A program made the position numbers and the translations under genes. Below, piece after piece: positions 10,343 through 21,679 of a DNA stretch of 64,000 nt. Positions within the stretch are counted from its first letter, which is position 1. Each line of letters begins with the position of its first letter. Source of the stretch: Lentisphaerae bacterium WC36 (GTDB lineage Bacteria; Verrucomicrobiota; Lentisphaeria; Victivallales; SZUA-371). The notes beneath the pieces were generated by a model that was not told the origin of the DNA, searched no databases, and saw only the letters and a program-made list of their open reading frames with translations. The stretch is from NCBI GenBank assembly GCA_020683205.1, contig CP085689.1:1488001-1552000 (forward strand), read 5' to 3'.

Positions 10343-10957
10343 TTATTTTATTTTTTCAAAAACAACTTCATCTATTGCAGGTGCAATATATATTTCTTTT
10401 GAAAGTTGTTTTAAATAAATATTATACCGCAAAAAGTGTCTTTCGGAATCATCATTTTCAATAAGCATAGTTCCAGTAACATTAATTTTGTAAAAATCTT
10501 TATTTTTTTCTGTAATAACAAATTTATCATAGGTAATTTTTTTAAGAACAAAACCATCATTGAGTTTTGTTTTCATAATGACTTTTAAGCTGTCTTTTAT
10601 TTTCTCATAATTTAATTTTGCAAGTTCATTTTCATATTGATTTGTAAAATTTTGCGGGATTTGAGATACTTTATCATTGTTCTTTTCAGTTTTTTGTGAT
10701 ATTTTAACAGCGGCATTATTTCCATTAATATCATTTTGAGCTTCATTACTTCCCTTTATATTTGGTTTTTCATTATCCCCTTCTCTTTCACCATTTTTAT
10801 TTCCTTTATTTTTTGCCTCTTCTTGTAAAACTTGATCATTATCATTATTTTCTCCTTCTTCATTCCTCATGTTAAAATTACAACCACGACTCATGAATAT
10901 AATAATTAAAATTAATATAACTATAGTGAAAATTAATAAAGCTTGAATTTTTCTCAT
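10343..10957 (-). CDS. Small bitopic membrane protein, last gene of GTPase/GAP1 operon
   Basis: I do not recognise a family. The 204-residue protein has an N-terminal membrane segment of about 18 hydrophobic residues (ALLIFTIVILILIIIFM) followed by SRGCNFN. A low-complexity, hydrophilic linker rich in Glu, Asn, Gly and Lys then runs to about residue 90, followed by a compact C-terminal domain (about 95-204) with alternating hydrophobic pattern ending in IYIAPAIDEVVFEKIK. This topology suggests anchoring in the inner membrane with a domain held in the periplasm by a flexible tether. It starts 16 bp after the preceding gene and closes the seven-gene series. The C-terminal domain could be an envelope-binding or adaptor module; this is inference from position only. 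Confidence 0.7.
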   Translation of the reverse strand: MRKIQALLIFTIVILILIIIFMSRGCNFNMRNEEGENNDNDQVLQEEAKNKGNKNGEREGDNEKPNIKGSNEAQNDINGNNAAVKISQKTEKNNDKVSQIPQNFTNQYENELAKLNYEKIKDSLKVIMKTKLNDGFVLKKITYDKFVITEKNKDFYKINVTGTMLIENDDSERHFLRYNIYLKQLSKEIYIAPAIDEVVFEKIK

Positions 10958-10973
10958 TTTTCGATACCTGTTT

Positions 10974-11951
10974 CTAATATGATTTATAATCCTCTGTAGA
11001 CATATGAATTCTGAAATTTCTTTTTCGATTTGATGCTTCCCAGTTTAAATTCCAACCTTCTTCAGTAAAAATATTGAAATATTTACAAAAATTTTCTAAA
11101 GATTCATTATCAACTTTTATATTAATAAAAAATTGTTCAGCAGGAGTTTTCGTTTGATAATCGCGCAAAATTCTTTTTAGATCATGCTCATTTTTAATAA
11201 GAATTCCTGCTCCTTTTTTGGGAGAATATTCAGTATACCTTTTGTCTCCCGTAAAATCAAAATCAAAATCATTATGATTAAATCTTTTTGGGAACATAAA
11301 AATGCCATTGTGCAAATTTTTCCCTTCAGGATTTGAAACAAGGTAAATTTTATTATCTAAATAGTGCAAAAATATTGGATTTTTAAATGATGTTTTAAAT
11401 ACAGGTAATACTACAGTCTTTTTTGAACCAATTTTTTGATAATTGGCTAAAGCCTTTTTTAAGCGCAATTCTTTTGCTTTTAACTCTTCAATTTTTTTAC
11501 TATTAAGTAATAATTTATCTTGTTTTTCCTTTTTTTCGGTAATAAGTTGTTTTATTTTTAACTTTTTACTAACACCTTGAGTAATTAATAAATTAATTTT
11601 AATTTCTTTATCTTGAATTCTCTGCTTTCGTAGTTCATTTTCTTCGTTTTGTTTGAAAAATAAATTCATCTTCTCATTTTTCATTATGTTGTTAAGCATC
11701 TCTTTTTTTTGTGATAAAAGCATCTTTTTTTTAGTTTGAAACAATTCAATTTGAGCTTCTAAAGTATGAATATTTGTTGATAAATTTTTATCAATATCAT
11801 CTACTTCTTTATTTGCATCCTTTATGCTTAAACTCATTAAAACTAGCAATAAAGCAATAAACATTACACCGCCAAACGTATTGCACATAATATCTAAAAG
11901 AAGTTCTAAACTTCCCATGCCTTTATTTTTTTTTATAATAATTTTCTTCAT
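10974..11951 (-). CDS. MotB/ExbD-like bitopic protein with DIMCNTFGG membrane motif and coiled coil
   Basis: A 325-residue protein with a single N-terminal membrane segment beginning GSLELLLDIMCNTFGGVMF and continuing IALLLVLMSL (about residues 12-40). An Asp at the membrane entrance followed by C-N-T-F-G-G resembles proteins found beside MotA/TolQ/ExbB homologues in planctomycete and verrucomicrobial genomes, and the Asp is placed like the proton-carrying Asp of MotB, ExbD and TolR. A Lys/Glu-rich coiled coil covers about 45-185, then a globular C-terminal domain (about 190-325) with VVLPVF and a run of aromatic residues. It overlaps the preceding gene by ATGA. I infer a stator-like subunit partnering the channel protein at 12837-13700; the homology is motif-level only. 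Confidence 0.65.
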   Translation of the reverse strand: MKKIIIKKNKGMGSLELLLDIMCNTFGGVMFIALLLVLMSLSIKDANKEVDDIDKNLSTNIHTLEAQIELFQTKKKMLLSQKKEMLNNIMKNEKMNLFFKQNEENELRKQRIQDKEIKINLLITQGVSKKLKIKQLITEKKEKQDKLLLNSKKIEELKAKELRLKKALANYQKIGSKKTVVLPVFKTSFKNPIFLHYLDNKIYLVSNPEGKNLHNGIFMFPKRFNHNDFDFDFTGDKRYTEYSPKKGAGILIKNEHDLKRILRDYQTKTPAEQFFINIKVDNESLENFCKYFNIFTEEGWNLNWEASNRKRNFRIHMSTEDYKSY

Positions 11952-12826
11952 TTATAAATAACCTTTTTTCGTTCTTCAATTGGTTCAGCTCCATATTTGA
12001 ATGAAAAGTCAGTCATTATGCCTCTTAGAAAATCATAATAATTAACTCCGCTAGGTCTTATTAAATAATAAAAATATACATCACTGTTTTTTAAGGTTTT
12101 CAAATATTGAGCAAATTCTTTTTGAGCAAAATCAATGATTCCCCATTTGGGCTTAAAATCTTTTTTGTCTCCATTTGAAAATAACAATGTAATTCCTTTT
12201 TTGCTAACAATAGTTAAAATAGCCTCTTTTCCATCAGAACTTTTTTCAGCTTTTATTTCTAAAGGACTACCATAAACTTTTTCTAACTTAATATTTGCAT
12301 TACCAATATCTTTTTTCTTTTTTAAGAGCATATTGGTACTTTTTACTAATTTTTTATTTAGCTCCTTTTCCCCTTTGCTGGCTATCTCCAATTTTTTTGA
12401 TAACTCATTGTCAATAATTTGGTAACTATTTAGCTTTTTATCTAAAATTTTTTCAATTTTCATTTGTTCAGCATGTTCAAGCTCAATTTCAGTTAAACGG
12501 CGCTCAACTTCTTGTGGAGTTAACGATTTTATTGAATCTGGAATAATATCATTTTCATCAATTATCTTATCAAGTTGTCCGACTTCGAGTTGAAGTACTT
12601 TGAGTTGACGTTGTAAATTTTTAACAGCATCAAGGTCTTTTTTGCGTATTTTTTCAATATTTTGTTGCTTGGTTGGATCGCTAGCAAGCTCGCTATTAAT
12701 TAAATTAATAACCAGCAACAGTGTCACACATAACATAATTCCTGTAACACAACTAATTATGTCTTGAAATGAAAACAAATCTATACTTGAATCACCATTA
12801 TTTTTATTGCTTGAATATCTAGCCAC
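11948..12826 (-). CDS. Second MotB/ExbD-like bitopic protein with coiled coil
   Basis: This 292-residue protein has a layout matching its downstream neighbour: a short N-terminus, one membrane segment preceded by an Asp (SSIDLFSFQDIISCVTGIM then LCVTLLLVINLI), a long Lys/Glu/Leu coiled coil at about 50-170, and a C-terminal domain (about 175-292). Two Asp residues flank the membrane entrance; QDIISC corresponds in position to LDIMCN in the neighbour, so the two genes may be an ancient duplication. The start is GTG, with AGGA a short way upstream, 10 bp after the channel-protein gene. Two distinct stator-like subunits with one channel protein suggests a heteromeric complex, as with ExbB/ExbD-type units. 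That function is inferred from architecture. Confidence 0.6.
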   Translation of the reverse strand: MARYSSNKNNGDSSIDLFSFQDIISCVTGIMLCVTLLLVINLINSELASDPTKQQNIEKIRKKDLDAVKNLQRQLKVLQLEVGQLDKIIDENDIIPDSIKSLTPQEVERRLTEIELEHAEQMKIEKILDKKLNSYQIIDNELSKKLEIASKGEKELNKKLVKSTNMLLKKKKDIGNANIKLEKVYGSPLEIKAEKSSDGKEAILTIVSKKGITLLFSNGDKKDFKPKWGIIDFAQKEFAQYLKTLKNSDVYFYYLIRPSGVNYYDFLRGIMTDFSFKYGAEPIEERKKVIYK

Positions 12827-12836
12827 GGTTCACGTC

Positions 12837-13700
12837 CTAGTACTTTAAATCATCTTCTGAACCAATTGTTCTTAGTCTTGCAATGATATTTTTATGACAA
12901 TAATCAGAGCAACTATCTAAAAAATCTTCTTCATAATTATTGATAAAGGTTAATATGACCTGAATAAATAATGCCGCAACCAATGCTATTAATGTTGTTT
13001 CAAATGCTACAGCTAGACCTCCTGTTACCTCTGTTAATGAATCTTTTAATTTATCAGGAGAAAATTCGACACTCAAAACGGATCCAAAACCGCCAATCGC
13101 TACAGATAAACCTAAAACCGTTCCAATAAATCCCATAACTGGAATTGCCCAAATAAAACCTTTAGCAATTGTATAAGTTGATTCTGTATATTGCTCATCA
13201 ATAACAGCTTGACTTTCTAAAGTTTCTGCAACATCTGAAATTCGACCAATATTTTGTAAATTTGCAAGAGCTCGTTCCATACGATTTAATATTAAAAATC
13301 TGCGAGGATTATCAACCGCAGCATACAAATTGTTAATAATATCATTTGCAGTAGTTTGCGAAAGCACAAAATCATCACTATCACTAGGTAAAATATTTAA
13401 ATTTAAAGCTTTTTTCTGCAACTTAATTTTTTGAAATTTAATAAATAAAATAGCTAAAGTCCACATCGAAAAGAAAACTATGAAATATGGAATAATACTG
13501 CGTTGATATACCCCTCCATGAAAAAACATATTTATTAAATTAAACTTGCCAAGTGAATAAAAAGGAAAAAGAATTCCGTAAAATATAATGGTCAAAATAC
13601 CTCCAACAATAAAAGATAACACCATATTACATCCAGTATATTTTTTACTTCTAAAACCTAAAATACTTTCAATATCACCACGATTATGACTTAACCTCAT
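12837..13700 (-). CDS. MotA/TolQ/ExbB-family proton channel protein
   Basis: Residues about 180-270 carry the family core: IWAIPVMGFIGTVLGLSVAI, then a loop with DSLTEVTGGLAVAFETTLIAL and the last membrane helix. The Pro in the first core helix and AFETT in the second match TolQ/ExbB/MotA. Two further membrane segments lie at about 25-50 and 75-95, giving four in all. Such proteins surround MotB/ExbD-type partners and convert ion flow into movement. The open frame extends to a TTG at 13730, but AAAAGGAGAG lies 7 bp before the ATG at 13700, which also gives a 4-bp ATGA overlap with the upstream stop; I therefore use 13700 (287 residues). In this operon it is the presumed energy-transducing component. 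Confidence 0.85.
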   Translation of the reverse strand: MRLSHNRGDIESILGFRSKKYTGCNMVLSFIVGGILTIIFYGILFPFYSLGKFNLINMFFHGGVYQRSIIPYFIVFFSMWTLAILFIKFQKIKLQKKALNLNILPSDSDDFVLSQTTANDIINNLYAAVDNPRRFLILNRMERALANLQNIGRISDVAETLESQAVIDEQYTESTYTIAKGFIWAIPVMGFIGTVLGLSVAIGGFGSVLSVEFSPDKLKDSLTEVTGGLAVAFETTLIALVAALFIQVILTFINNYEEDFLDSCSDYCHKNIIARLRTIGSEDDLKY

Positions 13701-16700
13701 AAATTCTCTCCTTTTAAAATTATCGGCCAAAAATCATACTTTGGCATTTTTTTTACTTTAAATCTTCTAACTATTGATCTTTGAATATCCTTTGTTGACT
13801 CTCCATCCATCGGAGCAAAAAGCGGAGTCAAACTATTGATTTTTACATTATTAAAAACCATTTGACCAAAAGAATTTTTTTCTGCAACAATAATAAGTTT
13901 TGGTAAAGCGTTTTCTTTATCTGATTTTATCAAAGCCCATAATTCCTGACATTTGTTAAGGTCAGCATTACTTAAATTCAATAAAATTTTATTTTTCTTT
14001 GGAGCGATCATGCAACCAACAAATCTTGCTTTACGATTCACCGATTTAGCCATAACAAACTGAGTTAAAGCATCCTGATAAACTTCTTTGTAAAAACTAC
14101 GATATTTTGATTTAAACAATGAACTACGTAACACAGAATGTATTTGATTTACATTTGATAAAGGTACATTTGAAAAAATATATTTATCTGGAAGTTCATT
14201 TTCTTTAAGAATTCTAGCTAAATATTGATTTAAATCATCAGCAGCAACCAGTGAACTATCAAACATTGTATCTGAGCAGCTAGATGCTAATTGCTGTAGA
14301 AGTTGTAACTTCATTGTTGGGTTGATTTCATCATTCTTTAACAAACTTGTAAAATATTTTGCAAATACCATATTAACAGCAGTATCAAGTTTAGGACTTG
14401 CAGGCAAGTCATCACATAAGGAATCCCAAATGTCAATATAAGGAGCCAATTTAAAAGTATTTATGTCAGATACCAAACGCACTGTTGTCGGTAATTCATA
14501 AAAGCTTTTTGACGGTGTTTTATGAGTCAAAACCCAGTTATCCTCATAACCTGTAAATTCAGCATTTATAGAACCACTACTATTGCCTGGGTCAAATAAT
14601 TTTGCGTTGATTTTATAAGTACTATTACTAATGTTACAATTTGGTCTAATTGTTGAATAATATGGGATAATATTATTATCTTTATCAGCAAAAGTTATTT
14701 TGTAGAGCTTCATAACATCTTCTTTTTGCCAGTTTTTAATATTTTCAATAACTCTTTGATATTTTGTTTTCACTACGGAAGTATTAAAAGTTTTAAAATT
14801 ACCAATAACTTCATACCATAAATTATTTTCGATATCATTTAAATCTAATTGAGTTTCCTCAATGGCATGAAAGTCAACAATACTATAGTCAGCGAAAACA
14901 TTAAAATTACGATATAGTTTTTTATTAGCGATGATATGCTTGATACCCTTTGATACAGAACTAAGTTTTTTGCTATATTTTATTAGTTCATCAAGGTAAC
15001 TATCTAATGTAAAAGTTTTTCCTGCCAAAAGTTCTTTGAATTCACGTAAAATCAGCTCACGTTTGCCATAATCATCAACAATAGCACGAATGTTATCCAT
15101 TCTTTTTCGAGCAATTTTTAATTGTTGGCTGCTGTAATCAGTGGGAACATACATTAGACGTTCAGCTTGGTTTAGCAACTCCTCTGCTCGTGAGAATCGT
15201 TCTATCGCTTCATCTTGAAATTCAGGAACAACTTTGCTTAATTCATTAGAAAATTTTTCAAGAATTGCATTAAATTCTCCAATAACTTTTTTCTCAAGAA
15301 TTCTTTTTTGTTGAAAATATTTAATTTTTGCACTTTCTAAAACAGCTTTTTCTTCAGTTTTAACGCAAAGCTCTTTAATTTTATCAAATGTTGTTTCAAT
15401 ATTCCAAGTCTCTTGTAAACCATTTTTTGCAAATAAATTTAAATTTGAGCTAAGTTGCTTATGTAACAAATCTAATTTTTTTATACGGTCATTCTCTTCT
15501 TTTATTTTAGCAATTACATCGTTAACAACTTTTTTTAATTTTCGACTTTTATAAAGAGAGTTATTTTTTTTATTTTCAGTTATATAAATACTAGCTTTAT
15601 TAGGATCTTCTGCAAGAAGTTGTTCAAGTTGTTTAACTTCATTCCCAACTTGAATTTCATAGTGAATTTTATCAATCGCAAAATATAACGCAATAGCTGA
15701 AGCAATAATAAAAATCAATGCAAAAGAAACTTTTCTAATTCTTACAATGCGAACATTTGCATAATATTCTTCTTTGGCCTCTTGAAACAGTTGTTCAGTA
15801 TTTTTAGGAATAACAAAATTTACTGATTTTAAGTAACGATATAATTCATCGATTTTAAGAAAGTTTTTATGTTTTTTAAGCATTTCAGTTAAATCATCAA
15901 AAACTTGCTTTTGCTTTTCCGATTCAGCAACTTTTTCAAGTTCTTGATTAAGCCAACTTCGTGCTTCTTCCACTTGTATCAACCACTCTTCACGAAGTTG
16001 TGCATATTCGTTGTTTCTTAGAATATCCCATTCTTGCAAATAAGTTGAAATTCCTGCAATATCAAACGTAGAATACGCTTCATTGATTAAAGAAATTAAT
16101 GTTTCCAATTGTTTTTGAACTCTGACAGTATGCAGTTTTTTTAGCTCTCTGTTAAGTTTTGCAACTACTCTTTGGTCAACAACAGTCATCAAGCGCGCAT
16201 CAGTTAGCTTACGTAAAATATCATTCATAGCCACAAAATCATTACTAACAATAGCACATCTAGCTAATTCTGTTAAATCTGCAATATAAGTTTTTTCTAA
16301 CGCAATCAAATCTCTTTTTAAGCTATCATCATCTGAGATGTTTAATAAATGACGCAACAAAGAAATACGACGTTTAACAGAACCTTTTTTTATCGCTAGT
16401 TTACGATATTCATGGGTAAATAATTCAATTAATTGATCCGATTTATAGCTGTTTATAAGAATTTCAAAATTATTAAAATCAATTTGCTCAGGAACTTTCC
16501 ACCCACGTTCACAACAAATTCGATACCACTGATTTTGTTCAGGGAAATTAATTATTTCAAGTTGATCAACAAGGGATTCTCCGCCCTCCTCTGCGAGAGC
16601 AATAGCTTCTATAATTTTATCATTTTTAATAAGATTTAAGCATTCAAGGTATTTTTTATTAACAGAATCTACTTCTGATGCAAATTTTTTAGCTAAAATT

Positions 16701-16780
16701 TGCCACTTTGCATTGTTTGAAAAAACTCCCCTTAATAAGACATTTTTAACTTCATAAACAGTTCTTTCAATACTACTCAT
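13697..16780 (-). CDS. Large bitopic helical protein (1027 residues) of the GTPase/GAP1 operon
   Basis: No family recognised. The first 340 residues are soluble and helix-rich (repeated Leu/Glu/Lys patterns such as LIALEKTYIADLTELARC), suggesting an all-helical cytoplasmic domain. One membrane segment follows at about residues 350-368 (FALIFIIASAIALYFAI). Beyond it a long charged helical region, probably coiled coil (about 370-590), leads to a mixed alpha/beta C-terminal part rich in aromatic and beta-type segments (about 640-1027). The topology suggests a cytoplasmic head joined through the membrane to a long periplasmic stalk and domain. The ATG at 16780 has AAGGAGG 6 bp upstream, preferred over the TTG at 16783. 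It overlaps the GAP1-like gene by 8 bp and the channel gene by 4 bp. Confidence 0.8.
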   Translation of the reverse strand: MSSIERTVYEVKNVLLRGVFSNNAKWQILAKKFASEVDSVNKKYLECLNLIKNDKIIEAIALAEEGGESLVDQLEIINFPEQNQWYRICCERGWKVPEQIDFNNFEILINSYKSDQLIELFTHEYRKLAIKKGSVKRRISLLRHLLNISDDDSLKRDLIALEKTYIADLTELARCAIVSNDFVAMNDILRKLTDARLMTVVDQRVVAKLNRELKKLHTVRVQKQLETLISLINEAYSTFDIAGISTYLQEWDILRNNEYAQLREEWLIQVEEARSWLNQELEKVAESEKQKQVFDDLTEMLKKHKNFLKIDELYRYLKSVNFVIPKNTEQLFQEAKEEYYANVRIVRIRKVSFALIFIIASAIALYFAIDKIHYEIQVGNEVKQLEQLLAEDPNKASIYITENKKNNSLYKSRKLKKVVNDVIAKIKEENDRIKKLDLLHKQLSSNLNLFAKNGLQETWNIETTFDKIKELCVKTEEKAVLESAKIKYFQQKRILEKKVIGEFNAILEKFSNELSKVVPEFQDEAIERFSRAEELLNQAERLMYVPTDYSSQQLKIARKRMDNIRAIVDDYGKRELILREFKELLAGKTFTLDSYLDELIKYSKKLSSVSKGIKHIIANKKLYRNFNVFADYSIVDFHAIEETQLDLNDIENNLWYEVIGNFKTFNTSVVKTKYQRVIENIKNWQKEDVMKLYKITFADKDNNIIPYYSTIRPNCNISNSTYKINAKLFDPGNSSGSINAEFTGYEDNWVLTHKTPSKSFYELPTTVRLVSDINTFKLAPYIDIWDSLCDDLPASPKLDTAVNMVFAKYFTSLLKNDEINPTMKLQLLQQLASSCSDTMFDSSLVAADDLNQYLARILKENELPDKYIFSNVPLSNVNQIHSVLRSSLFKSKYRSFYKEVYQDALTQFVMAKSVNRKARFVGCMIAPKKNKILLNLSNADLNKCQELWALIKSDKENALPKLIIVAEKNSFGQMVFNNVKINSLTPLFAPMDGESTKDIQRSIVRRFKVKKMPKYDFWPIILKGENL

Positions 16781-19154
16781 CAATACCTCCTTCTCGTGTA
16801 AAAATCACTTTTAATGCTTCTTCGCTTGCTATTAAACTATCTTTTTCTTTTAAAAATAATGTAATTTTTAATTTATCTGGAACTTCTAAAACTGATTGTC
16901 TTAAAAAATAAAATGCTTTTAAATATTTTTTTGTACTATCCTTGTATTCTTCATGCGGTCCATTTATTAAGTTATCATAGACTGAAACTATTTTCCACCA
17001 ATCTAAAGCGTTGTCAATAACTACTAAATCTTTTCGCTCTTTTTTAACAATTTGTTGTAATGCAACAAATTGATTCCAGTGCTTTTTTACCAATTCATCC
17101 TCAAGAATTGCTACTTTTAGATCAAGAATATTTTGCTGATCTTTAACAATAAATTCTTTATTATCAATTGTTAATTTATTTTGTGCTACCTGAGCATTAT
17201 TTAAGTCAAAAGTAGATGAAACGTTATTGATTACACTATCAAACTGATATGGAAAAATTAAACTTGAATTTTTCTCATCAAAAATTGTACCTTGTATACT
17301 AATTTTAACTGGGTTATTTGATATAGTAATTTGATCATCATTAATAAAAAAATCAAAATCATTTTGTAACGATTTTTCAATATAATCCCTTAGTCCAGCT
17401 AATTTATTATTTGTTTTATTAAAACTAATTTCACTAATAAGGCGTTTCCCAGTAGCAGGTGATTTTCGAAATATTTTAAAAGTTAAAATTTTATTAGCAG
17501 GTTCTCTTTCAACAATTAATGATGAATTTTCGCTACTTGCTTTCTTTACAATTTTAATTGCTACAACACCAATATTTTCAGGAATAACTATCTCATTTTT
17601 AGTTGCCAAATTCACTAATATATTTAGTGAATCAAGGTCTTCTGAAGTTAACGGAGGTACTTTAAATAAATTTAGTTTATCAAGGTTTTTTTTTCTTTTA
17701 ACTGAAAATCTTTCATCACTTTTTGCTAATTGAGAAACTTGCTTGTTGTTCTTTTTTCCTTCAAGCTCAGATTTTTTTTGAGTTTTGGGTAAATTATTTT
17801 TATTTGTTATAACTTTATCGCTTAAGCTATTTATTTTTTTATTTAATCCATCTATTTTCTTATTATCTTTTGATATATTTTGACTAGCATCATTGTTTTT
17901 TAAATTATCTTTTTTATTGAAATCAGGTTGAATAAACTTTATAGCCAACCACGCCACAAACGCACCAATTATTAATAAAGAAACTGCAGCTCCTGTTATT
18001 GTTAAGGTTAACCAAAGACGTAATTTTTTATGATATTTATCAAAAACATCTTTATTATTATTTATTGGAACAGAATTTTTTTCTAACTCTTCTAAAAATT
18101 TATCATGATCATCATTATTGATGTCGGAATTTTTACTTATAATTTTATTAGTGAAATTTTCTATTCTCTGCTGATAATTCTCATTTTTTTTATCAATACT
18201 ACTTTCGTTAATAATACTGCTATGTACAGGAACCTCACGATGAATTTTTCCATGCTTAGTTAAATCGCTTTCATTTTTTGGCAATTCAAATAAAAACTTA
18301 TCTCTATCTTCGACATAATCTTTTAAAGCACTTACAACCAATGGCATATTTAAGTATGGTTCACACAACTGATTTATTTTATAGCATTTTTGATCAAAAT
18401 CAGATTCACTTAAATCAATAATTAAAGAGTTTGTGCTCATTCGTGCCTTTACTAGTGTTGACGAATTATTCGTACAAAATCTTAAAAAACATTCCAAGCT
18501 TTGAGGAACACTTTCAGCGTATGTGTTAAATGTAAAAGCCCACCGTTCTTCTGGTGTTAAAAGTGCAAATATTTCATAAACTAATGGCAAATTATCTTCA
18601 AAATTCTTATTAATAACATAAATATTTTGCTTTAACTTATCTCTAAAAACTTGAGCTATAACACCTGCCGTTGCTTTAGTCCCGCTATATTTTTTCCATA
18701 AAGAAATCTTCGTAGGTAATTCAAAATTGACTTCTGGAATTTGAGGCTGGCGTTGAATTAAATGCGGCTCCATATCCCATTGTGTTATGAAAAAACCACT
18801 CTCAAAAACAGAACCAACTCCACAACCACGACCAAGAAGGTCCCTATCATGCTCTAAAACCAAATGATGCGCTAATTTATTATCTCTTTTTGTATAATCT
18901 AGTCCAGCAAAAGCTATTCTTGAAACAATGCTATATTTCTTACCGTTTCCATTCCATAAATAATGACTATATACGGTTGGATTTTCGTTGGCTTGATCGC
19001 TATGTGCAGGATATAACGCTTTATAGCCGCTACAACTAATCAAGGTATTGGCTACATTTGCAACTAGCCCTTCAGTGTGTGCAACAATACAAAAGCCACT
19101 ACTACTTGGCACTAAACCTTTTGGTGCTGAGGTATATATTAGTTCATAACTCAT
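16773..19154 (-). CDS. GAP1-like GTPase-associated protein with transmembrane segment and extracytoplasmic domain
   Basis: The N-terminal 130 residues (MSYELIYTSAPKGLVPSSSG, then FCIVAHTEG, NPTVYSHYLW, YSIVSRIAFAGLDYTKRDNK and LAHHLVLE) match, from memory, the GAP1-N2 domain of GTPase-associated protein 1, encoded beside double-GTPase-type proteins. A middle region to about 260 (LLTPEERWAFTFNTY) resembles the GAP1 middle domain. Then comes a hydrophilic linker, a membrane segment at about 380-403 (LTLTITGAAVSLLIIGAFVA), a Lys/Asn-rich tether, and a C-terminal domain of about 280 residues that should be periplasmic. GAP1 proteins as I know them are soluble, so this fusion is unusual. The ATG at 19154 has GGAG upstream and gives the expected MSYELIYTSA start; a TTG at 19169 is the alternative. 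It follows the GTPase gene by 33 bp. Confidence 0.75.
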   Translation of the reverse strand: MSYELIYTSAPKGLVPSSSGFCIVAHTEGLVANVANTLISCSGYKALYPAHSDQANENPTVYSHYLWNGNGKKYSIVSRIAFAGLDYTKRDNKLAHHLVLEHDRDLLGRGCGVGSVFESGFFITQWDMEPHLIQRQPQIPEVNFELPTKISLWKKYSGTKATAGVIAQVFRDKLKQNIYVINKNFEDNLPLVYEIFALLTPEERWAFTFNTYAESVPQSLECFLRFCTNNSSTLVKARMSTNSLIIDLSESDFDQKCYKINQLCEPYLNMPLVVSALKDYVEDRDKFLFELPKNESDLTKHGKIHREVPVHSSIINESSIDKKNENYQQRIENFTNKIISKNSDINNDDHDKFLEELEKNSVPINNNKDVFDKYHKKLRLWLTLTITGAAVSLLIIGAFVAWLAIKFIQPDFNKKDNLKNNDASQNISKDNKKIDGLNKKINSLSDKVITNKNNLPKTQKKSELEGKKNNKQVSQLAKSDERFSVKRKKNLDKLNLFKVPPLTSEDLDSLNILVNLATKNEIVIPENIGVVAIKIVKKASSENSSLIVEREPANKILTFKIFRKSPATGKRLISEISFNKTNNKLAGLRDYIEKSLQNDFDFFINDDQITISNNPVKISIQGTIFDEKNSSLIFPYQFDSVINNVSSTFDLNNAQVAQNKLTIDNKEFIVKDQQNILDLKVAILEDELVKKHWNQFVALQQIVKKERKDLVVIDNALDWWKIVSVYDNLINGPHEEYKDSTKKYLKAFYFLRQSVLEVPDKLKITLFLKEKDSLIASEEALKVIFTREGGIDE

Positions 19155-19187
19155 ATTAGTTAACTCCAATGCTTTATTGTATATAAA

Positions 19188-21491
19188 TTACTCATCCCAA
19201 AAATCATCTTCTTGTGGTAATTTTTGATTTAAAGTATTATTATCATCGAGGTCAAAACTATACTTATAGTCATTGTATTCCTCTTTATTTTTTTGCGAAG
19301 CTGTTTTTCTACTCTTTAGGGGCTTAGTTGAATAATTAATTTCACCAGGGATTTTAATAAAACAATTGTTATAGTAATCGTAAATTTCACATCCAAAAAA
19401 TGACTTAGGTAATTGCTCCATAGAATCACTTCTTTCGTTATAATAAATAATTGCATCTCCAGTTTTATTATAATCATTAAGCTCAATTACTTCGATTTGT
19501 TCATCACATAAAGTACGGTCTTCATGATAATATTTACCAATAAAACCTTGTTGAGCTAATAACAGCATTAGTGGCAATTCACTAAACAAAGGTTTAATAT
19601 CTTTTGGTTTTATACCGATATTACCTGTTGTTGGATCAAATTCAGCATGGTTTCCCGTTGAACTAGTAAAAACATAATAGACATCGCAGCAGAAACCTTC
19701 AACCACCTGAATGAAGTCAGGGCAATATTTTTGAAGCAAACTTCTTGCATGAAATGACATATCAATTACTTTGCAAAAATCAAGTTTAAATTCTTTTGAT
19801 TCTGGATCTCGATAGTAATAATTTTCTTCAAAAATTTTATCATCAAATAAGTTCTGTAAAAGATCACATTTTACTAGATTAATGATTAAAGTTTTATCAA
19901 ATTTATCACTTGAGCTCATATTGCGAAACTTCCTCATACGAGATGCCATTTCAGTGAACAGTGTCGTTTGATTGCTAAAGTCAGCATTATTTAATTGAGG
20001 GTCATCAACATTAAGTTGATTAACAATTCTCAATTCTTTTGATACATCAAAACAGAACATAATTCCTTCTGAGTTTCCTAAATGCTTAGTACCCGGATTG
20101 AAATAATCATCCATTCCAGGTTGAAAATGCTCACCAGCATTATCGTAAAAGGTTACATTAATTGGCAAATCATAACGTTTATTACGTTCAGTAATTGAAC
20201 TTTGCAGTGTGAAAACAAATGGTATCGGTAAATTTATTAATGACCCGTGCCAATTGATTTGGTTATACAAATTCCCTTGAATTTCTGTTTTAGGTAAGGA
20301 TACTAATTTATCAGGCATTGAATTATAAAATAATGTTTCAATATAATTATTAATTGTCATATTATTTTTTGCATCAGCATCAGTGAATGTCATTGCGAAT
20401 TTTTTGCTTAATAAATCTCTAAATTGATAAATCATTGATGATAAAAGGTATGATTTTCCACATGCGGGAGCACCCACAATTGAGTAGAAAACATTATCTA
20501 AATCCAAATTTGAATCCAAAATTTTAAGATGACAAACTGGACACGCTTTTTCGTCACAAGCTATTCCATTATGATCAAGAGCTCTCCCTAAATTATCAAA
20601 CGAACTAGGTTTAAATCTATTTCGTGCTCCTGCTCCTGCTATTGGGTCACCTAAATTATTGTAATCTTGAGAAATAAATAGTAAATCTTCAATTGGAAAT
20701 TTATTCCAGCAGTGTGAACAAACAATCATTTCTGATTCGCTAATGTGAAATGCCCCCAAATCACCACCTAAATATGAATAATGCTCTTGCTGTTCTTGAA
20801 CATAACCAGTATTATTTTCAATGTTTTGAGATGTTGTATTGTATTGTTGCACATTTTGAGATGAAGTTACTGGTATAGGCGGAGGTGTTAGCTTCGCTTC
20901 ATTTTGCATATCTGCTTCATGTTGAGCATTTAAGTCATCAATATGCTTATAACCATTACGTTTTTTGCGAAAATTAATGCTAATTTTGCCTTTTTTCTTG
21001 ACTTTAGAAGATTCCTGTTTTTTATTTTCAGCTGGTGCATCATCATTAATTGCATTACTTGCCGCCATTGCAGTAGCAACCTCTATTGTAGGTTTCTGAA
21101 TTTCTTTTTGAGGTGCTACATTCACCGTCGTAGTATCAATGTTTCCTAAATCAGCAACTTGATTAGCGTATTTAATTCCAGTAGCACTATGCGCTTCAGT
21201 AACTTTTACAGGTTCTTGATTATAGTATTGATCTTGATAACTAAAAGGTACATCATTATCGTTTGAATCATCAGAATTTACTTGGTTAAAACTTGTATTA
21301 TTAGTAGTATCATCATCCATAGGTAAGGAGTTACCACAAAATTCAGCCAAACTATACTCTATAGGAGGGGTGTCTTCAGTCAGAACACTATACTCAAGGT
21401 TAATTTTTTTATTTTCATATAATTCAAAAATTTTTTCTTTAGAAATTGGACCAAGTTTTGAATTGCCTTTTCTTAAATAAAAAACACTCAT
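19188..21491 (-). CDS. GYF/zinc-ribbon TRAFAC-type GTPase (double-GTPase family), first gene of operon
   Basis: A 767-residue cytoplasmic protein. Residues 1-50 (MSVFYLRKGNSKLGPISKEK onward) resemble the GYF_2 peptide-binding domain. A disordered Asn/Gln-rich linker with a basic patch (KKKGKISINFRKKRNG) follows to about 240. Four Cys/His pairs, CSHC near 257 and CPVC near 317, form a split zinc ribbon. The GTPase core has P-loop GAPACGKSY near 340, a D-N-A-G-E switch II-like motif near 447 (FYDNAGEH) and NLVKCDLL as the base-specificity motif near 540. This combination resembles the DO-GTPase2 families encoded with GAP1. The ATG at 21491 is preceded by GGGGA; the longer frame from a TTG at 21506 is unlikely. 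Its position first in the operon suggests it is the nucleotide-dependent controller. Confidence 0.78.
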   Translation of the reverse strand: MSVFYLRKGNSKLGPISKEKIFELYENKKINLEYSVLTEDTPPIEYSLAEFCGNSLPMDDDTTNNTSFNQVNSDDSNDNDVPFSYQDQYYNQEPVKVTEAHSATGIKYANQVADLGNIDTTTVNVAPQKEIQKPTIEVATAMAASNAINDDAPAENKKQESSKVKKKGKISINFRKKRNGYKHIDDLNAQHEADMQNEAKLTPPPIPVTSSQNVQQYNTTSQNIENNTGYVQEQQEHYSYLGGDLGAFHISESEMIVCSHCWNKFPIEDLLFISQDYNNLGDPIAGAGARNRFKPSSFDNLGRALDHNGIACDEKACPVCHLKILDSNLDLDNVFYSIVGAPACGKSYLLSSMIYQFRDLLSKKFAMTFTDADAKNNMTINNYIETLFYNSMPDKLVSLPKTEIQGNLYNQINWHGSLINLPIPFVFTLQSSITERNKRYDLPINVTFYDNAGEHFQPGMDDYFNPGTKHLGNSEGIMFCFDVSKELRIVNQLNVDDPQLNNADFSNQTTLFTEMASRMRKFRNMSSSDKFDKTLIINLVKCDLLQNLFDDKIFEENYYYRDPESKEFKLDFCKVIDMSFHARSLLQKYCPDFIQVVEGFCCDVYYVFTSSTGNHAEFDPTTGNIGIKPKDIKPLFSELPLMLLLAQQGFIGKYYHEDRTLCDEQIEVIELNDYNKTGDAIIYYNERSDSMEQLPKSFFGCEIYDYYNNCFIKIPGEINYSTKPLKSRKTASQKNKEEYNDYKYSFDLDDNNTLNQKLPQEDDFWDE

Positions 21492-21585: not shown

Positions 21586-21627
21586 AAAAAAAGCGACAAA
21601 ATAACATTTTGTTACTTTATCGCTTTT
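21586..21627 (-). terminator. Rho-independent terminator after the DUF1097 gene
   Basis: Arms at 21593-21605 and 21611-21623 pair over 13 bases with two mismatches around a 5-base loop. The flanks add A7 on the left and T4 on the right, so the minus-strand transcript ends in a T-run. It separates the DUF1097 gene from the GTPase/GAP1 operon, whose promoter must lie in 21492-21585. Confidence 0.75.
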
Positions 21628-21679
21628 CGTAAAAGTTGAATAAAATTCAACTAACATATTCTATAAAATTAATTCAATT

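Follow-up and report, generated by a model that had tools for sequence, protein, structure and literature searches.

A conserved gene cluster of Lentisphaerae bacterium WC36 and its relatives that joins a GTPase/GAP1 switch to a putative MotA-type membrane motor

Few membrane motors of the MotA/ExbB kind, driven by ions, are known, and the only one known to us to be under GTPase control is that of Myxococcus gliding, where GltJ carries GYF/zinc-finger domains. MglA and MglB, a GTPase and its GTPase-activating protein (GAP), act there with a motor made of MotA-like AglR and ExbD-like AglQ/AglS (PMC3169522, PMC9389320, PMC9481161), and assembly of the Agl/Glt complex, in which AglR sits with two ExbD-like proteins, is stimulated by MglA-GTP (PMC3169522, PMC9481161). 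Zorya is compared below by its ZorA tail, its ZorB domain and its ZorC/D/E proteins (PMC11890865). GAP1-N2 systems are predicted, in the main text of Kaur et al. (2020, eLife, PMC7159879), to be conflict systems near the membrane whose effectors vary, and are sorted into three themes (tubulin, HSP70 and kinase); among their planctomycete partners are proteins with GYF fused to trypsin or to a transmembrane (TM)-rich region. A survey of the phage shock protein (PSP) system predicted that a DO-GTPase family protein acts in membrane-related stress. Here we describe an operon in a stretch of 64,000 nucleotides from Lentisphaerae bacterium WC36 (assembly GCA_020683205.1, contig CP085689.1, positions 1,488,001 to 1,552,000; hereafter the window), where a GTPase, a GAP1 protein and a large bitopic protein, BIG (the switch), are encoded together with a MotA-family channel and two stalk proteins (the motor). 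The GTPase/GAP1 pair belongs to a known class (PMC7159879, main text), and the original prediction for this locus, made from the sequence alone, had recognised such cassettes as known from computational surveys; for the combination of switch and motor we found no published description.

The system is real and ancient, and six of its genes are one conserved gene cluster. In the window, seven open reading frames (ORFs) run on the minus strand from 21491 to 10343, encoding the GTPase, GAP1, BIG, the channel, stalk A, stalk B and a small bitopic protein. They are tightly packed, with junctions (from the most likely starts) of +33, -8, -4, +10, -4 and +16 bp from the first gene to the seventh, in agreement with the overlaps of 4-8 bp and gaps of at most 33 bp described originally; the word ‘fused’ used then holds in the sense of co-transcribed neighbours, not of a gene fusion.

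Scanning public genomes with an alignment of the channel protein, MotA, turned up 234 relatives, and the 80 best were read. Most of these belong to Lentisphaerota, Planctomycetota and Verrucomicrobiota; a few belong to other bins or phyla. Loci were chosen by the patterns GL[AS][VIT]AFETT and G[FL]IWAIPV, so that the counts cover close MotA relatives, many of them from metagenome-assembled genomes (MAGs) with bin errors. By profile searches 31 of the 38 loci with adequate flank have the six core genes on one strand and in unchanged order; two of the remaining seven hold all six in rearranged form (L096 and L140, in our numbering of loci), and five are without one or more. Among 60 genomes of the order, GAP1 was found in 14 (our own included) and a close MotA orthologue in 14, and on intact contigs the arrangement is GTPase-GAP1-BIG-(variable)-MotA-stalk A-stalk B, with GAP1 and MotA a few kb apart. 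Across 288 sampled genomes of the phylum there were 23 MotA loci above 240 bits; GAP1-N2 lies within ~11 kb on the same contig for 20 of these and the other three are at contig ends, against a rough chance estimate for such linkage of 0.7% per locus. From these synteny counts, the gene set goes far beyond chance. The claim that the genes form one system, which had been staked on finding them together in other genomes, thus stands for these six, whereas the seventh varies. A close MotA was also found in ~11 of 244 Planctomycetota genomes. In the MotA tree the window groups with Lentisphaerota and the branching mostly follows phyla, for which reason the system looks old and frequently lost.

The GTPase (19188..21491, minus strand, 767 amino acids (aa)) has a GYF-like segment at residues 1-55, Cys motifs at 258-261 and 317-321, a P-loop at G340-S347, DNAGE at 450-454 and KxD at 541-543. 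The window protein alone reaches E 0.2 against DO-GTPase2, under the Pfam cut-off, and the assignment therefore rests on members of its family, where profile searches find DO-GTPase2 in 14/16 (best 7.6e-6), GYF_2 in 10/16 and a zinc ribbon in 5/16. Invariant in the family alignment are the P-loop GxxxxGKS, DNAGE, KxD and the cysteines of CxHCW/CPxCH; the DNAGE motif holds the Glu described by Kaur et al., so that the family has the conserved Walker B Glu of TRAFAC-class DO-GTPases. Its profile shows weak similarity to Der/EngA among PDB sequences. Across a gap of 33 bp the adjoining gene encodes GAP1 (16773..19154, minus strand, 793 aa), which matches GAP1-N2 at 5.5e-21 and GAP1-M at 8.2e-7 (Pfam) and has a single predicted TM helix at ~390-410, also seen in relatives, with the C-terminal part predicted to be periplasmic (TM calls throughout are by simple hydropathy). 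Both the GTPase and the GAP1 calls of the original prediction are thereby borne out, and a GAP1 protein with N2 and M domains beside a GTPase is the arrangement of a GAP1-N2-type system.

The likeness to such systems extends to the Walker B Glu and zinc ribbon of the DO-GTPase, the GAP1-N2/M domains, the TM helix of GAP1 and the variable membrane partners. In particular, the planctomycete GYF-trypsin and GYF-TM partners in the main text of Kaur et al. match the variable gene beside MotA in relatives of our operon, and those authors therefore saw part of this neighbourhood. BIG and the three motor proteins are the difference: they are not described in the main text of PMC7159879, where MotA, ExbB, TolQ and proton channel have zero occurrences.

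The channel (12837..13700, minus strand, 287 aa, four predicted TM helices) had been called a MotA/TolQ/ExbB protein, and it matches MotA_ExbB (PF01618) in Pfam at 1.7e-9, with 37.9 bits against a cut-off of 22.9; its profile had no match among PDB sequences. Its likely start is ATG 13700 rather than TTG 13730, because relatives start there and a Shine-Dalgarno site is present; strong sites of this kind precede both this ATG and that of BIG at 16780. Identity across phyla is 42-63%, and the motifs GFIGTVLGL and AFETT of TM3-TM4 are near-invariant.

Stalk A (11948..12826, minus strand) and stalk B (10974..11951, minus strand) have ExbD-like topology, each with the N-terminal TM helix and conserved Asp that mark ExbD/TolR. 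This residue is Asp22 in stalk A, present in 67/67 sequences, and Asp20 in stalk B, within the TM segment LLLDxMCNTFGG and present in 63/63; relatives are ~20% identical overall to the window proteins, and in stalk A Asp22 is the sole invariant residue. A coiled coil (51-185) and an alpha/beta domain (200-283) follow in stalk A, a coiled coil and a C-terminal domain in stalk B. The two are homologous to each other (hhalign P 5.5e-25), a heptad periodicity of 3.5 spans the middle 130 residues, and the middle region of stalk A matches coiled coils. Modelled with AlphaFold2 (pLDDT 87.9), stalk A has the TM helix at 17-49, helices to 185 and then the alpha/beta domain, which compares with TolR 5by4 at Z 7.6 (85 residues, 3.6 Å) and with ExbD 8pek at Z 6.8, tied with the unrelated ribosomal S11 and RNase H-like folds. 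Neither stalk has a Pfam family, and the ExbD profile is unmatched, both in Pfam and in a genome search at the locus; hhalign against ExbD was not significant, and we rejected the stalks as ExbD by sequence. The MotB/ExbD-like label first given to them is thus partly supported: membership of ExbD or MotB by sequence fails, and for a motor role speak the invariant TM Asp, the topology and a predicted periplasmic domain whose resemblance to TolR/ExbD is matched by unrelated folds. The model, the invariant Asp and the topology fit a motor role, short of proof. Compared with ExbBD/TolQR, the operon has in common a MotA_ExbB channel, a single-TM Asp partner and perhaps, from the model, the periplasmic fold, and differs in its four-TM channel, two distinct stalks, coiled coils of ~130 aa and unmatched Pfam ExbD. 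Two weak ExbD matches do occur elsewhere on the contig of this genome (82086-82352 and 1662236-1662514), in frames with an internal TAA that are perhaps broken genes.

BIG (13697..16780, minus strand, 1027 aa, no Pfam family) lies between GAP1 and MotA in 31/38 loci. It is predicted to have a cytosolic helical domain (1-330), a TM helix at ~355, long periplasmic helices and beta domains at 692-768 and 918-988 (AlphaFold2 model, pLDDT 81.8, pTM 0.50). No strong known fold emerged for it: Foldseek gave no match at E <= 0.001, there were only helical look-alikes at Z ~8-9, and FN3 had no Pfam match in the seven proteins, the two predicted beta domains not being searched singly in either case. The seventh gene (10343..10957, minus strand) encodes a small bitopic protein of 204 aa with no clear family in Pfam; this is a variable position outside the constant core, where relatives often have a protein with an N-terminal TM helix after stalk B, in many cases with a VWA domain.

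The operon joins two modules, since switch and motor each occur apart. The triad GTPase-GAP1-BIG is found without the motor at L051, L058, L183, L186 and L188, and L185 is similar (no GAP1 was called there, yet PF20013 matches at that place). Motor sets without a switch have a MotA from a distant clade, 400-530 aa long and in some members with a zinc-ribbon N-terminus (L174:7062-10403, L175:8828-12791, L182:7623-10289 and L190:144-2316); at these four loci a MotA of 400-510 aa is accompanied by one or two stalk-like proteins, and GTPase/GAP1 are missing. An unlinked motor was further seen at L137 (Neorhodopirellula pilleata) and L107 (a Desulfamplus bin), in both with GAP1-N2 on another contig.

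Most relatives have at least one GYF protein between BIG and MotA or between MotA and stalk A, joined to trypsin-like, PrsW, VWA, SQHop-like or TM2 parts or to five TM helices. Lineage-variable effectors thus occur in relatives, and none was recognised in the window itself, which has no separate GYF gene. With its GYF-like segment on the GTPase, the window operon is a minimal version. VWA proteins that are periplasmic (N-terminal TM) or GYF-tagged were noted at the end of the operon or inside it at L068:12632-13675, L110:12668-13708 and L112:12372-13532.

With slightly better than even confidence, we take the system to be an envelope machine that is driven by ions and gated by the GTPase, to which exchangeable effectors dock through GYF domains; its role is probably in surveillance of the envelope or in conflict. 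A constant core of switch plus motor with exchangeable GYF-tagged membrane effectors is a pattern that fits such a machine; nucleotide control of the motor and action across the envelope, both proposed in the original prediction, are suggested by gene linkage and topology. The machine would have two modules, the GTPase-GAP1-BIG switch and an ion motor of MotA and the two Asp stalks, in which five MotA subunits might enclose an A/B stalk dimer and conduct ions. On binding GTP the cytosolic DO-GTPase would engage or release the motor, its state being carried across the membrane by BIG and GAP1 via their single TM helices, and the stalks would in turn exert a pull or a twist on something in the periplasm. 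In most relatives, exchangeable effectors of the membrane or periplasm (trypsin-like or PrsW proteases, VWA or multi-TM proteins) may be anchored to the core by GYF domains, and envelope damage or contact would lead to effector activation through GTPase-timed, ion-driven motion. More tentatively, at a little under an even chance, this may be a new class of GTPase-controlled trans-envelope ion motor of 5:2 type, with two coiled-coil stalks, a BIG coupler and plug-in GYF effectors, conserved across the PVC bacteria. If true, a second, unrelated pairing of GTPase and motor over several phyla would show that envelope force gated by nucleotides follows a general design, and GTPase-centric conflict systems would gain their first concrete output. 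The cell envelopes of PVC bacteria are unusual, and a conserved envelope motor there is therefore of direct interest.

Several points weigh against this reading. A contact between GTPase and motor is suggested by linkage, and since the triad exists without the motor at the five loci named above, linkage could mean shared regulation only. The stalks are not ExbD by sequence, and for stalk A ribosomal S11 and RNase H-like folds score as well as TolR. The window variant has no recognisable effector, and a MotA tree that is mostly phylum-like is less typical of a fast-moving defence gene. The same mostly vertical tree would suit a force machine like Agl-Glt, with no conflict role, whose GTPase positions or assembles a motor acting on envelope proteins, to move or to anchor them, in adhesion, gliding, secretion or cell-cell contact. 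Agl-Glt is the nearest functional analogue of the operon: logic and gene numbers are the same (a GTPase with a GAP, and one AglR-like and two AglQ/S-like motor proteins, by type and not by orthology), single-pass TM and periplasmic envelope proteins accompany them, and the periplasmic VWA protein is a possible adhesin. We nevertheless judge a force machine of this kind unlikely, as a DO-GTPase and GAP1 replace the small Ras-like MglA and the Roadblock GAP MglB, all genes lie in one operon, Glt outer-membrane proteins and TonB-like partners are absent from it, presence is patchy, and exchangeable protease partners suit effectors better.

A further alternative would be a Zorya-like anti-phage system, whose ion motor would respond to a disturbed envelope by switching on effectors in the cytosol. 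The MotA channel with its Asp stalks in a putative conflict system, the classification of Kaur et al. (PMC7159879, main text) and weak ZorA profile matches (1.3e-4) recall Zorya, the last because the MotA domain is shared. Yet the channel stops at residue 287, shortly after TM4, and the long cytoplasmic ZorA tail is not present; no OmpA-type peptidoglycan-binding ZorB domain was found by Pfam, nor any ZorC/ZorD/ZorE nuclease or helicase among the seven proteins by PADLOC and Pfam; the operon has putative GTPase control instead, and its genes sit among housekeeping genes. We rejected Zorya membership, give this alternative little credence, and would place the operon in neither Zorya nor Agl-Glt, although on our main reading it would work in a similar way to both. 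Equally improbable, in our estimate, are two independent membrane modules under one promoter, one a stress switch of GTPase, GAP1 and BIG, the other an energiser of Exb type. Independence is favoured by the occurrence of the switch on its own and of distant motor genes on their own (L174, L175, L182, L190), and also by distance-matrix correlations, higher within BIG-MotA-stalks than with GTPase/GAP1, although species descent confounds these correlations, and by themselves they prove little. On the other hand, gene order is kept over phyla and close MotA relatives hardly ever occur away from the switch; by the correlations BIG is tied more closely to the motor than to the GTPase, and the modules are therefore not cleanly separate.

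Around the operon the chromosome is ordinary, with rho, coaE, rimO, pgsA-like, dinB and Lol-like ATP-binding cassette (ABC) genes (named by reading the sequences), dinB lying 76 bp beyond the seventh gene. A hairpin at 21588..21628 (minus strand, 19-bp stem and T run), terminator-like by consensus match only, may split the operon from the upstream gene and end the upstream transcript. Phage origin was rejected, with no PHROG match. In one subgroup of Lentisphaerota, and not in the window, a conserved protein of 320-380 aa, probably secreted and with no Pfam match, is encoded directly upstream of the GTPase (L067:337-1485, L068:300-1418, L079:821-1879 and eight more). In a planctomycete MAG an HSP70 gene, HSP70 being among the themes of GAP1-N2 systems (PMC7159879, main text), stands directly behind the motor operon (L099:4907-6748).

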